A stretch of DNA of 25,052 bases from a virus. Below, piece after piece: positions 18,002-21,332 of this stretch. Location: the IMG/VR virus record IMGVR_UViG_3300031918_000138, positions 1 through 25,052 of that record; one strand, 5' to 3'. Numbering within the stretch: position 1 is the first letter of the stretch; every line of letters begins with the position of its first letter. Below the pieces are notes generated by a model. That model searched no databases. It had not been told where the DNA came from and was given only the letters and a program-made list of their open reading frames with translations. The translations under genes and the position numbers were made by a program.

Positions 18002-18430
18002 TCAGAACGGTGGGGTGTCGGGGTAGCCGGCGCCGTGGGGGGTGGTGACGGGGAGGGGTTGGGTGGCGATGGGTGGTGTGCCGCAGTGGTGGGCGATGAG
18101 GACGGTGACTTGGTCGGCGGGGCGTCGGGTGGCGATGGGGTGGAGGCCGGGCCAGTGGCGGTTGATGAGTTCGCCGCGGGTTGGCCAGGGTCCGGCGAGC
18201 TGCCAGGTGGGGCGGGCGAGGATGACGGCGGCGGCTTCTTCGCGCCAGGTGGCTCGGTAGGGGTCGGTGATGGCGAGGCCGGCCATGAGGGGGGCGTCGT
18301 ATCCGGCGATGACGGTGCGGCCGCAGGTGGCGCAGTGGCGGGTGTGGGCGTTGGTTCCGGTGAGGGTGGGGTCGTCGCCACGACGGGTGGCGAGGGCTGC
18401 GTGGATGGCGCTGGTGCGGGTGGTGGTCAT
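18002..18430 (-). CDS. Zinc-ribbon-like hypothetical protein beside the repeat region
   Basis: A protein of 142 residues starting at ATG 18430. No Shine-Dalgarno sequence is visible, and repeat copy 1 ends only 15 nt upstream; further upstream the frame runs through the non-coding repeats. Metal-site candidates are C33-x-x-C36 (HCATCG) and HHC at 114-116 near the C-terminus, with a centre of TVIAGYDAPLMAGLAITDPY and helices EEAAAVILARPTWQ. The spacing of CxxC and a late HxC resembles small zinc-ribbon proteins found in actinophages. It is the first gene after the half-site array, so it may be controlled from there. No enzymatic role is claimed. Confidence 0.68.
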   Translation of the reverse strand: MTTTRTSAIHAALATRRGDDPTLTGTNAHTRHCATCGRTVIAGYDAPLMAGLAITDPYRATWREEAAAVILARPTWQLAGPWPTRGELINRHWPGLHPIATRRPADQVTVLIAHHCGTPPIATQPLPVTTPHGAGYPDTPPF

Positions 18431-18444
18431 GGGTGGTGGGGTGT

Positions 18445-18646
18445 CGGATGACGCGTGACACGTTGGTCTGGTATCGACGTCTGTCGCATGTATGTGTGCG
18501 CGCGCGTAGAGGGGCGAACGTAGACACACGTGTCATGCGTCATCCGTGGCATTGAGTGGATGCGGGGTTGACGTGTCATATGCGTCATTACCTGCGGAGA
18601 TGCTGGGCTGATGTGTCGCGGTGTTGGGATGACGCGTGTGACGCGT
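18445..18646. repeat. Four paired GYGTCAY repeats (iteron-like)
   Basis: Copy 2 (18529-18546) reads CGTGTCATGCGTCATCCG. Copy 1 (18445-18462) is its reverse complement with one change in 18 bases. Copy 3 (about 18572-18590) has the same two halves two bases apart, CGTGTCATATGCGTCATTA. Copy 4 (about 18627-18646, inverted) reads GCGTCACACGCGTCATCCC on the minus strand. Each is a direct pair of 7-mers, spaced 0, 0, 2 and 2 bases. Orientation alternates: minus, plus, plus, minus. Confidence 0.8.
18485..18508. other. 24-nt alternating purine-pyrimidine tract (possible Z-DNA)
   Basis: The plus strand runs CGCATGTATG then TGTGCGCGCGCGTA with strict pyrimidine-purine alternation over 24 bases, ending in four CG steps. 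Such tracts can flip to Z-DNA or unwind under negative supercoiling. It lies between repeat copies 1 and 2. Confidence 0.6.
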
Positions 18647-18686
18647 CGGTGCTGGCGATGTGTCATGGCGGTGGGCATCGTGGGGG

Positions 18687-21332
18687 TCACCAGCCGGTCG
18701 CGTAGCCGTCGCGGGGTTCAGCTGATGACGCATCGGCTTCGTCGGTGACGGGTTCGAGGAGGCGGATTCCGTCGATCCAGCGGGCTGCTGTGTCGCGGTT
18801 GAGGCGTGCGCTGAAGCGGGCGACGAGCTGCTGGGAGAGGGCTTTCGGGGAGACGGGTTCTTCGCCTTCGGTGCGGCACCAGGCTTCGTAGGCGGAGCGC
18901 AGGGCGCTGCTCTTGACGTGGTGCAGCTGGCTGTTGGGGGAGCCGACGCTGCAGCGTTCGTCGACGAAGCGGGCGACGGTGTCGGTGTCGCGTTCGTAGG
19001 CGATGGTTGCGGCGCGTGCGGCGGGGGGTTCGGCGAGGCCGTGGGTGAAGTAGTCGGCGGCGCCGCGGATCGCCCAGGCGAGGATGGCGGGGCCTTCAGC
19101 GGTGACGAGCTGGTCTTCGAGGCCGGCGATGCGGGCCTCTTCGGGGACGACGTGTTCGAAGGGGAGCATGCGGATGCGGCGCCAGAAGGCTGGGCCGCCG
19201 GCTTTGACGGTGGGCAGGTGGTTGGCGAGGAGCCAGAGGGTGTGGGTGGGGGTGAAGGTGAACCAGTCCTGGCGCATGAAGCGGCCGCTGATGGGGTCGG
19301 AGCCGGTGAGCTGCTTGACGCGGGCTTCACCGAACCGTTGGCCGTCTTCGAGTTCGGAGGAGATGACGAGGCGTGCTCCGGATAGGCGCGCGATCTCGGT
19401 GGGGTGGCCATGGTTGGTGGTGTCGAGGAGCATCTCGGCGGGCGCGGACAGGGCGTAGCCGTCGTCTCCGAGGCCGAGGAGGCGTTGCAGGACGCCGGCG
19501 AAGGTGGTCTTGCCGTTGGCGCCGGAGCCGTGCGCGAAGGGCATGAGCTGTTCGAGGACCTGGCCGACGAGGCTGATGCCGATAAGGCGCTGGATGTAGG
19601 TGGCCATGGTGGGGTCGCCGGCGAAGGTGTCGGCGAGGAAGGAGTTCCAGCGGGCGGGGGTGGTGGTGAAGTCGGGGGCGACGGTGGTGGTGCGGGTGTG
19701 CAGGGCTGCGGGGTTGGGGTGGGACAGTGTCCCGGTGCGGAGGTTGACGACGCCGGCGGGGGTGTTGAGCTCGTAGGGGTGAGCGTCGAGCTGGTCGATG
19801 TCGACGGCGACGCGGGTGTCGTTGCGGGCGATGGCGGGCATGGCTTCCAGGCCGCGGCGCGACAGGCTGCTCTTGCGGTGGCGGGCGAGCTCGTCGTTGC
19901 GGTGCCCGTCGGGGTCGGCGGTGGGCAGGTGGCGTGCGATGTCGCGTGCGAGCTCGCTGACGGCGCCGTTGTCGTAGACCCAGCGGTGCCCGTTCCAGGT
20001 GATCCAGGCGCCGCGTTGGCGGACGTAGCGGATGGTCTGGCCGTAGGTGTCGACGAGGCGTAGGGCGTTGCCGTCGTCGGTCGGTGAGTAGGTGACGGGC
20101 TCTGCTGTGACGGGTGTGGGGGTGGGTGTCCCGGTGTTGGTGGTCCGCGTCCCGGGTTGGGGGGTGGGTGTCGCGGTGGTGGGGGCGAGGAGGGCTGCGA
20201 GGTCGTCGGAGGTTGCGTGATCGACGGTGCGGCGTTCTTCGGCGCGTTGCCCGTAGCCGGCGGCGTAGAGGGCCTTGGCCGCGGCAGCGTGGTCGCCGGC
20301 GTGCTCGAGGACGGTGTACGCGCCGGGCTTGGTGTAGGGGATCTCGGTCTGGAAGTCGGTGCTCGAGGTGAAGACGTAGAGGCGGTCGCGGCCGTCCTGT
20401 GCGCCTCCGGTGGTGGCGCTGATACCGATGGTTTTGCCGGGGCGGCGCCAGTAGCGGCGGCCGCCGCGTTGGGTGACGAACACCCAGCCGTGGGGGGTGA
20501 GGATGTCGGCCCAGTCGGTGCGGGCCTCGTAGTCGTCGAGCGGCGACACGCCTTCGCTGGGGTCGCGTGGTCCGGTGGTGTGAACCACTGGACCGGTCTG
20601 GGTGGAGGCGAGGTCGGGGGTTTCGTCGAGGGTGCGTAGGAGGGCGTGGAAAGCGTCGCGCTCGTCGAGGGTGAGGGTTACCGCGGTCGACGGGCCGCCG
20701 ATGAGGCGCATCCAGGGTCGGCCGGTGGCGTGGTGGCGTGATGGGGCGACGACGACCTGTCCGCCTTCGCCGCGGGTCTCGGCGAGGACCTGTAGGACGT
20801 CACGCTCGGTCGTGTGGGCGATCTTCTGCAAGCGCGCGGCCTGGAGGGCCAGGTCGGTGATGTCGGCGGCTTTGGCGGTCTCCTGCGTCTTCCAGTCGGC
20901 GAGCTCGTCGGGTGTGCTGGGGCGGCGGGCGAGCTTGGTGTTGCCGGGGACGATGCCGTCGAGGCGGTAGTGGAAGTGGATGCCACCGGAGGGGGAGGCT
21001 TCGACCCAGCCGCTGGTGATCTTCGACCAGAGGGTGCCGAGGCCGGAGTCGTCGGCGAGGGCCTTCAGCTCGGACAGGCGCGCGGCGGCGCGGCCTTCGA
21101 TCTCGGTCATCTCGGCGTTGCCGGAGACGGCGCCTTGGACGACGCCGAGGTCCCATTGGCGGGGGTCGTCGGGGGCGAAGAAGGCGCGCACGACGTCCTC
21201 GGTGGGGAGCGCCTGGGTGAGGCGCTTCCAGTCGATCGCGGGCGCTTTCGATCCGTCGCTGCGGATGGGGACGACGCTGTAGCCGGCGGCGAGCATGGCG
21301 AGGGCGGCGTCGAGGATCGGGGTGTCGTTCAC
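18687..21332 (-). CDS. Primase-polymerase fused to D5-type SF3 helicase
   Basis: A protein of 881 residues starting at GTG 21332 in a GTGA overlap. Residues 1-215 form a prim-pol domain: LDAALAMLAAGYSVVPIRSD, the strand QWDLGVVQGAVSG followed by MTEIEG, and the catalytic-type GGIHFHYR (117-123). Residues 216-420 are a linker, partly Thr/Pro-rich (PTPQPGTRTTNTGTPTPTP). Residues 421-590 correspond to D5_N. The SF3 helicase follows with Walker A GSGANGKTT (602-610), a Walker B-like strand ARLVISSELEDG, the NHLP motif (704-707) and an arginine-finger region FWRRIRMLPFEHVV. A C-terminal domain may bind DNA. It would prime and unwind phage DNA, and no DNA polymerase is visible in the window. The repeat region immediately after its stop could be its origin. 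Confidence 0.93.
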   Translation of the reverse strand: MNDTPILDAALAMLAAGYSVVPIRSDGSKAPAIDWKRLTQALPTEDVVRAFFAPDDPRQWDLGVVQGAVSGNAEMTEIEGRAAARLSELKALADDSGLGTLWSKITSGWVEASPSGGIHFHYRLDGIVPGNTKLARRPSTPDELADWKTQETAKAADITDLALQAARLQKIAHTTERDVLQVLAETRGEGGQVVVAPSRHHATGRPWMRLIGGPSTAVTLTLDERDAFHALLRTLDETPDLASTQTGPVVHTTGPRDPSEGVSPLDDYEARTDWADILTPHGWVFVTQRGGRRYWRRPGKTIGISATTGGAQDGRDRLYVFTSSTDFQTEIPYTKPGAYTVLEHAGDHAAAAKALYAAGYGQRAEERRTVDHATSDDLAALLAPTTATPTPQPGTRTTNTGTPTPTPVTAEPVTYSPTDDGNALRLVDTYGQTIRYVRQRGAWITWNGHRWVYDNGAVSELARDIARHLPTADPDGHRNDELARHRKSSLSRRGLEAMPAIARNDTRVAVDIDQLDAHPYELNTPAGVVNLRTGTLSHPNPAALHTRTTTVAPDFTTTPARWNSFLADTFAGDPTMATYIQRLIGISLVGQVLEQLMPFAHGSGANGKTTFAGVLQRLLGLGDDGYALSAPAEMLLDTTNHGHPTEIARLSGARLVISSELEDGQRFGEARVKQLTGSDPISGRFMRQDWFTFTPTHTLWLLANHLPTVKAGGPAFWRRIRMLPFEHVVPEEARIAGLEDQLVTAEGPAILAWAIRGAADYFTHGLAEPPAARAATIAYERDTDTVARFVDERCSVGSPNSQLHHVKSSALRSAYEAWCRTEGEEPVSPKALSQQLVARFSARLNRDTAARWIDGIRLLEPVTDEADASSAEPRDGYATGW

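Follow-up and report, generated by a model that had tools for sequence, protein, structure and literature searches.

What is the function of the 256-bp non-coding gap which follows the primase gene of this contig and which carries an array of paired GYGTCAY half-sites? The DNA analysed here (the window) is the complete IMG/VR record IMGVR_UViG_3300031918_000138, 25,052 bp in length, and probably represents part of the genome of an actinobacterial phage. Genes of the contig are on the - strand. Portal DNA of the contig matches Gordonia phages and reading of its ORF list reveals terminase-, portal- and tail-like ORFs, which indicates that the contig is not a satellite island devoid of its own capsid and tail genes. 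The end of the contig (24750-25052) encodes tandem repeats of about 8-9 residues (DSASVDWVG / GSARVGSVG).

The gap is bounded by the primase stop codon at 18687 and the next start codon at 18430. Pfam matches of the primase are Prim-Pol (PF09250, residues 10-206, 3.5e-9), D5_N (1.3e-28) and DUF5906, and its PHROG matches are DNA polymerase/primase families (3.7e-144); its assignment to SF3 rests on the D5_N/DUF5906 and PHROG matches. Together with an AlphaFold2 model, these matches reveal a prim-pol domain, an SF3 helicase and a C-terminal winged helix combined in one protein. The features of the region are as follows.

18687-21332, - strand: Prim-Pol / D5_N / SF3 helicase gene (881 aa), the proposed initiator, with Pfam and PHROG matches
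18753-18986, - strand: C-terminal winged-helix domain of the primase (about residues 783-860), the proposed iteron binder
18431-18686, no strand: proposed replication origin (non-coding replicator), 256 bp, G+C 0.61 against about 0.71 around it, layout kept in relatives
18660-18666, + strand: unpaired ninth half-site, GTGTCAT
18629-18644, - strand: iteron pair 1, GCGTCACACGCGTCAT, gap 2, 9-bp period, outer
18590-18597, - strand: box CCGCAGGT beside pair 2, kept in many relatives, with a weak likeness to part of a DnaA box
18573-18588, + strand: iteron pair 2, GTGTCATATGCGTCAT, gap 2, 9-bp period, inverted with respect to pair 1
18530-18543, + strand: iteron pair 3, GTGTCATGCGTCAT, gap 0, 7-bp period, core-flanking
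18446-18463 and 18528-18545, no strand: arms of an 18-bp inverted repeat, with one mismatch between them
18485-18508, - strand: core, 24 nt of strict pyrimidine-purine alternation, TACGCGCGCGCACACATACATGCG, Z-DNA-prone, between the inner inverted pairs and the 18-mers
18448-18461, - strand: iteron pair 4, GTGTCACGCGTCAT, gap 0, 7-bp period, core-flanking, in inverted orientation
18002-18430, - strand: gene for a small CxxC...HxC (zinc-ribbon-like) protein directly after the array, conserved in relatives

The first-pass annotation had described four GYGTCAY pairs beside the primase gene, and our analysis recovers them exactly as described, with its spacings of 0 or 2 bases. The 18-bp inverted pair with a single mismatch is likewise present, and the array lies, as had been claimed, in the non-coding stretch next to the prim-pol/SF3 gene. 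Along the direction of the primase gene the pairs are oriented + - - +. Search for GYGTCAY-N0-2-GYGTCAY in the whole record returns these four pairs only, and the reversed control pattern returns none. The single 7-mer is not enriched contig-wide (18 found against 25 expected), and one further half-site is located within the primase gene at 18725-18731. The gap itself holds nine half-sites against a shuffle mean of 0.85 and four pairs against a shuffle mean of 0.018, a number which none of 2000 shuffles reached.

The first-pass annotation had proposed a search of related phages for the same motif next to their primase gene, absence of which would speak against its interpretation. A scan of viral contigs with the single primase sequence gave no matches, whereas a scan with a primase alignment gave 80 viral loci, and 39 loci from bacterial genomes were fetched in the same way. 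Within 96 related loci, RYGTCAY pairs with gaps of 0-3 number 52 in the 600 bp after the primase stop codon (56 kb in total) and only one elsewhere (929 kb). The motif is conserved directly 3' of the primase in many relatives, and this check therefore does not refute the interpretation. In the Arthrobacter phage RootBeer, the primase of which is 43.6% identical, the same paired motif lies just after the gene, and the array DNA of RootBeer is kept in 15 Arthrobacter phage records, most of them at about 80% identity. The complete Arthrobacter phage Peas contains four pairs of the variant RYGTCAY only at 40765-40958, again just after the primase, and the + - - + order of the pairs is repeated in locus L023. 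Hypothetical genes are annotated over or beside the array, on either strand, in Bridgettevirus records (Peas gp61, L013 481-822; Bridgette gp62, L006 5481-6074; RootBeer gp49, L005 5484-5762) and no gene is annotated over it in PeggyLeg03; any of them which extends across the array is probably a spurious call.

A search of the phage collection for direct DNA homology to the gap returned no match, and homology is visible only in its architecture. Relatives without the GYGTCAY motif carry other repeats in the same place, for example AGTGACCG, AGTGCCGT, GGTGGCAG, GGTGCAG, CGAAGGG and AGGGGAG, and the plan common to them is a tandem iteron pair, a core and an inverted tandem pair. A first de novo repeat scan allowing one mismatch was swamped by codon-period repeats in the G+C-rich genes and exact 6-mers were used instead. 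About half of the loci have inverted tandem pairs of an exact 6-mer in the 400 bp which follow the gene, and the other windows of the same loci almost never do; these counts are not independent because some loci (e.g. the AGGGGA group) are close relatives. The exact scan misses the array of the window itself because its half-sites vary at the Y/R positions. A mismatch-tolerant scan reveals an inverted tandem iteron set after the primase in 67 loci, with many iterons unrelated to one another, while random places yield such a set, with up to one mismatch, in 5 of 400 trials. Typical geometry is a pair, about 19-23 nt, the core, about 19-23 nt and the inverted pair, with longer left gaps in several clades if the count is limited to the best 6-mer set.

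Counting against the origin reading, roughly one in three of the examined loci has no array within the 420 bp scanned. The more distant primases of BPP-1, Sebastisaurus, BAjuniper, Moss and StarStruck are also not followed directly by an array; BPP-1, which was predicted to be pRN1-like by Berkner et al., has no clear iteron set in the stretch read. By eye, repeats in inverted sets are observed after the primase in the archaeal Methanoculleus virus Blf4 (L138) and in the Firmicutes phage Streptococcus Javan424 (L144), and similar iteron layouts around an AT-rich core are observed in the Firmicutes phages Lactobacillus CL2 (L140) and Staphylococcus phiSP15-1 (L141), which have lower-G+C hosts. 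The phages of loci L024, L027, L028 and L039, as well as L012 and L013, contain two origin-like modules in succession, both with an alternating tract and inverted iterons of their own; tracts in the double modules of L027 and L028 are 18 nt and 26 nt in length.

Which protein recognizes the iterons? The first-pass annotation had suggested a replication initiator, perhaps the prim-pol/SF3 helicase itself, and conservation of the array 3' of that gene supports the suggestion. Moreover, if the primase reads the iterons, changes in the iterons should follow changes in its DNA-binding domain. Across 48 loci, similarity of the iterons is correlated with identity of the C-terminus when identity of the helicase is held constant (partial r 0.376, permutation p 0.0005), whereas the reverse relation, with the helicase tested and the C-terminus held constant, is about zero (0.040, p 0.29); these partial correlations are moderate and the Mantel-type permutations do not model phylogeny or fully correct for shared ancestry. 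Restricting the comparison to machine-picked iterons gives 0.327 (p 0.001) for the C-terminus and 0.067 (p 0.15) for the helicase. When helicase, prim-pol and zinc protein are controlled together, the value for the C-terminus is 0.379 (p 0.001). Iteron sequence does not track the helicase or the prim-pol domain, and this difference between domains of the same protein carries more weight than the rest of the covariation argument.

The C-terminal 142 residues of the primase are modelled by AlphaFold2 as a winged helix (pLDDT 87.7). The best matches of this model among solved structures are the RFX DNA-binding domain, the origin-binding domain of P4 (1ka8) and the C-terminus of ASFV PrimPol. The match to 1ka8_A has a Z score of 8.0 over 79 residues at 3.2 A and that to RFX scores slightly higher; since Foldseek E-values are weak, the likeness is a match at the level of fold only. 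We regard it as highly probable that the array is a phage replication origin which works like SaPI Rep/ori, and that its iterons are bound by the C-terminal winged helix of the phage's own primase-helicase.

The gene located directly after the array offers another candidate. The small zinc-ribbon family is encoded right after the array in 48 of 102 loci, including the window, L008, L019-L042 and L098-L118. Its invariant residues are CxxC ... R ... HxC, it has a weak match to PHROG 10480 (no function assigned there), and the AlphaFold2 model of the protein (pLDDT 83) finds no convincing match in the PDB. The downstream zinc protein had been named in the first-pass annotation as a possible binder. 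Our data do not favour this proposal: of the 67 array loci, 28 have no gene for the protein, and the extent to which it has diverged has no predictive value for the iterons (partial r 0.037, p 0.27, beside 0.379 for the C-terminus). The protein looks like a conserved replication partner.

The same numbers bear on the possibility that the pairs are operators, through which the zinc-ribbon protein or another HTH regulator controls the operon starting at 18430. Direct-repeat operators exist for some regulators, the array is located just upstream of a start codon, and the frequent presence of the zinc-ribbon gene behind it would fit such a role. However, the zinc protein is missing from many array loci and adds nothing to the prediction of the iterons, and location of the array follows the 3' end of the primase while the genes downstream differ among loci. 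A search for a sigma-70-like promoter also found none, although actinobacterial promoters may differ. Control of the operon as the primary function of the pairs is thus unlikely, but autoregulation may take place on top of the origin function.

The core between the inner pairs had been overlooked in the first-pass annotation. It is the only alternating run of 13 or more in the contig. Its G+C content is 62%, and local G+C (0.52-0.64) is below that of the surroundings, yet the region is not AT-rich. In about 100 loci, alternating tracts of at least 16 nt are found 55 times within 700 bp after the primase and 15 times elsewhere; inverted iteron pairs flank 40 of the 55 but only one of the 15. 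The tracts are 16-32 nt in length and differ in sequence. In L037 and L119 a 24-nt alternating tract is located at about +2036 after the primase, with none next to the primase, and inverted pairs are not recognised around it.

Substitutions in the core were counted in aligned clades other than that of the window because the core alignment of the window's own clade is unreliable. Of the variable core columns, 22 of 23 are transition-only and one includes a transversion, whereas outside the core 96 of 268 variable columns are transition-only and 172 include a transversion (Fisher p 1e-8). In these several clades, the pattern fits selection on alternation rather than on sequence. The alternating core is not universal, because alternation is broken in the L045-like subgroup and in the mycobacteriophage Aminay (L008) the iterons are not accompanied by such a tract. 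We tentatively suggest, and consider the chance to be somewhat less than even, that the core represents a novel type of origin-opening element, centred between inverted iterons and selected for its alternation and not its sequence, which replaces the AT-rich unwinding element in G+C-rich phages; energy of the B-Z transition or flexibility of YR steps might help SF3 helicases to open the duplex.

An alternative reading places the function in a large stem-loop or cruciform of the kind proposed for pRN1, with the inverted pairs merely forming its stem. Pairing of the inverted 18-mers can give rise to a long stem around the tract (single-strand DNA fold z -5.2), in Arthrobacter phages the tract is itself a palindrome, and pRN1 requires integrity of its stem (PMC4234260). 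However, the tract of the window folds no better than shuffles, and pairs 1 and 2 are in the opposite inverted order. Moreover, about a dozen loci have unequal tandem spacings on the left and the right (e.g. 7/10, 9/7, 10/7), so that the stem is broken while the tandem sites are kept, which argues that iterons and not a stem are what is kept. A stem-loop as the functional feature is therefore very unlikely.

Short direct repeats are also bound by recombination factors of the Cox/Xis type, and the array might accordingly have a role in some other DNA transaction, be it partition, packaging, excision or termination, and lie near the primase by chance or linkage. This is extremely unlikely, given that the array stays tightly linked to the primase while the surrounding genes are unrelated and that the iterons covary with the winged helix of the primase. 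In addition, no terminator-like site was found and there is no credible Rfam match, those near the array being due to chance.

Perfect DnaA boxes, TTATCCACA, are present inside the arrays of L033, L102, L104 and L106 (within 300 bp after the primase), and the CCGCAGGT box of the window and many relatives sits where those arrays have their DnaA boxes. Overall, seven DnaA boxes are near and 16 are far, which is only suggestive. GC skew, proposed in the first-pass annotation as a check, is uninformative here, as its near-monotonic rise follows gene direction and shows no turn at the array; the skew of the complete phage Peas likewise does not turn there.

On the origin reading, winged helices of the prim-pol/SF3 protein would bind the tandem TGACRC (GYGTCA) iterons directly 3' of their own gene. 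The inverted tandem pairs would then load two helicase assemblies head to head across the core, the helicases would open the strictly alternating pyrimidine-purine tract, and the prim-pol domain would prime both strands for the host replisome. We infer binding, double-hexamer assembly, melting of the core and origin activity from the comparative analysis; binding of the iterons by the winged helix is the one step of this series with comparative support.

Such an origin and its initiator would provide a testable pair for a large group of phages and prophages of actinobacteria, the origins of which we did not find described: a literature search, a weak negative as few subscription papers were covered, returned no description of such an element in actinophages. 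The plan would unite pRN1-type prim-pol replicons and SaPI-type iteron origins, and the naturally occurring combinations of iteron and winged helix would amount to a recognition code ready for use. How a G+C-rich replicator melts when it has no AT-rich element is a question posed by the alternating core, which could also help to locate origins in genomes for which GC skew is of no use.

Parts of this plan are already known from the published origins of pRN1 and SaPI. SaPI Rep recognizes, through its C-terminal domain, iterons directly downstream of its gene, and Cch2 of SCCmec binds direct repeats at a putative origin, where direct and not inverted repeats are needed for binding (PMC7581432). 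PICI origins consist of two iteron sets flanking an AT-rich region (PMC6092414). The window shares with these systems a helicase initiator gene immediately 5' of the origin, a C-terminal DNA-binding domain of that initiator (predicted here) and a core with a set of short iterons on each side (PMC6092414, PMC7581432). In contrast to SaPI and PICI, a prim-pol domain is fused to the initiator here, the element is a phage which has genes for terminase, portal and tail, and the place of the AT-rich core is taken by an alternating pyrimidine-purine tract with a G+C content of 62%.

With pRN1, the ORF904 protein of which has the same prim-pol/SF3/winged helix plan, the window shares the position of the origin 3' of the gene (PMC4234260). 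The inverted iterons of the window could resemble the pRN1 stem-loop, although pRN1 is reported to be without iterons, whereas explicit tandem iterons which covary with the winged helix are present here. Sequence-specific binding of the pRN1 replication protein to the origin region was not detected (PMC4234260), which counts against the origin reading. The alpha protein of P4, which acts at ori/crr, shares the winged-helix origin-binding fold (1ka8, Z 8.0), the recognition of direct repeats (proposed here) and the union of primase and helicase in one protein. Unlike the archaeo-eukaryotic prim-pol (PF09250) of the window, the P4 primase is of the Toprim type, and sequence and arrangement of the iterons also differ.

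Short sites, paired and inverted around a melting region, are also where the SF3 helicases SV40 large T and papillomavirus E1 assemble. In these proteins the DNA-binding domain is located at the N-terminus and has a different fold, and no homology of DNA is claimed; the analogy to these origins is noted in PMC7581432. The element of the window may be described as having iterons as in SaPI, a protein as in pRN1 and a binding domain as in P4.
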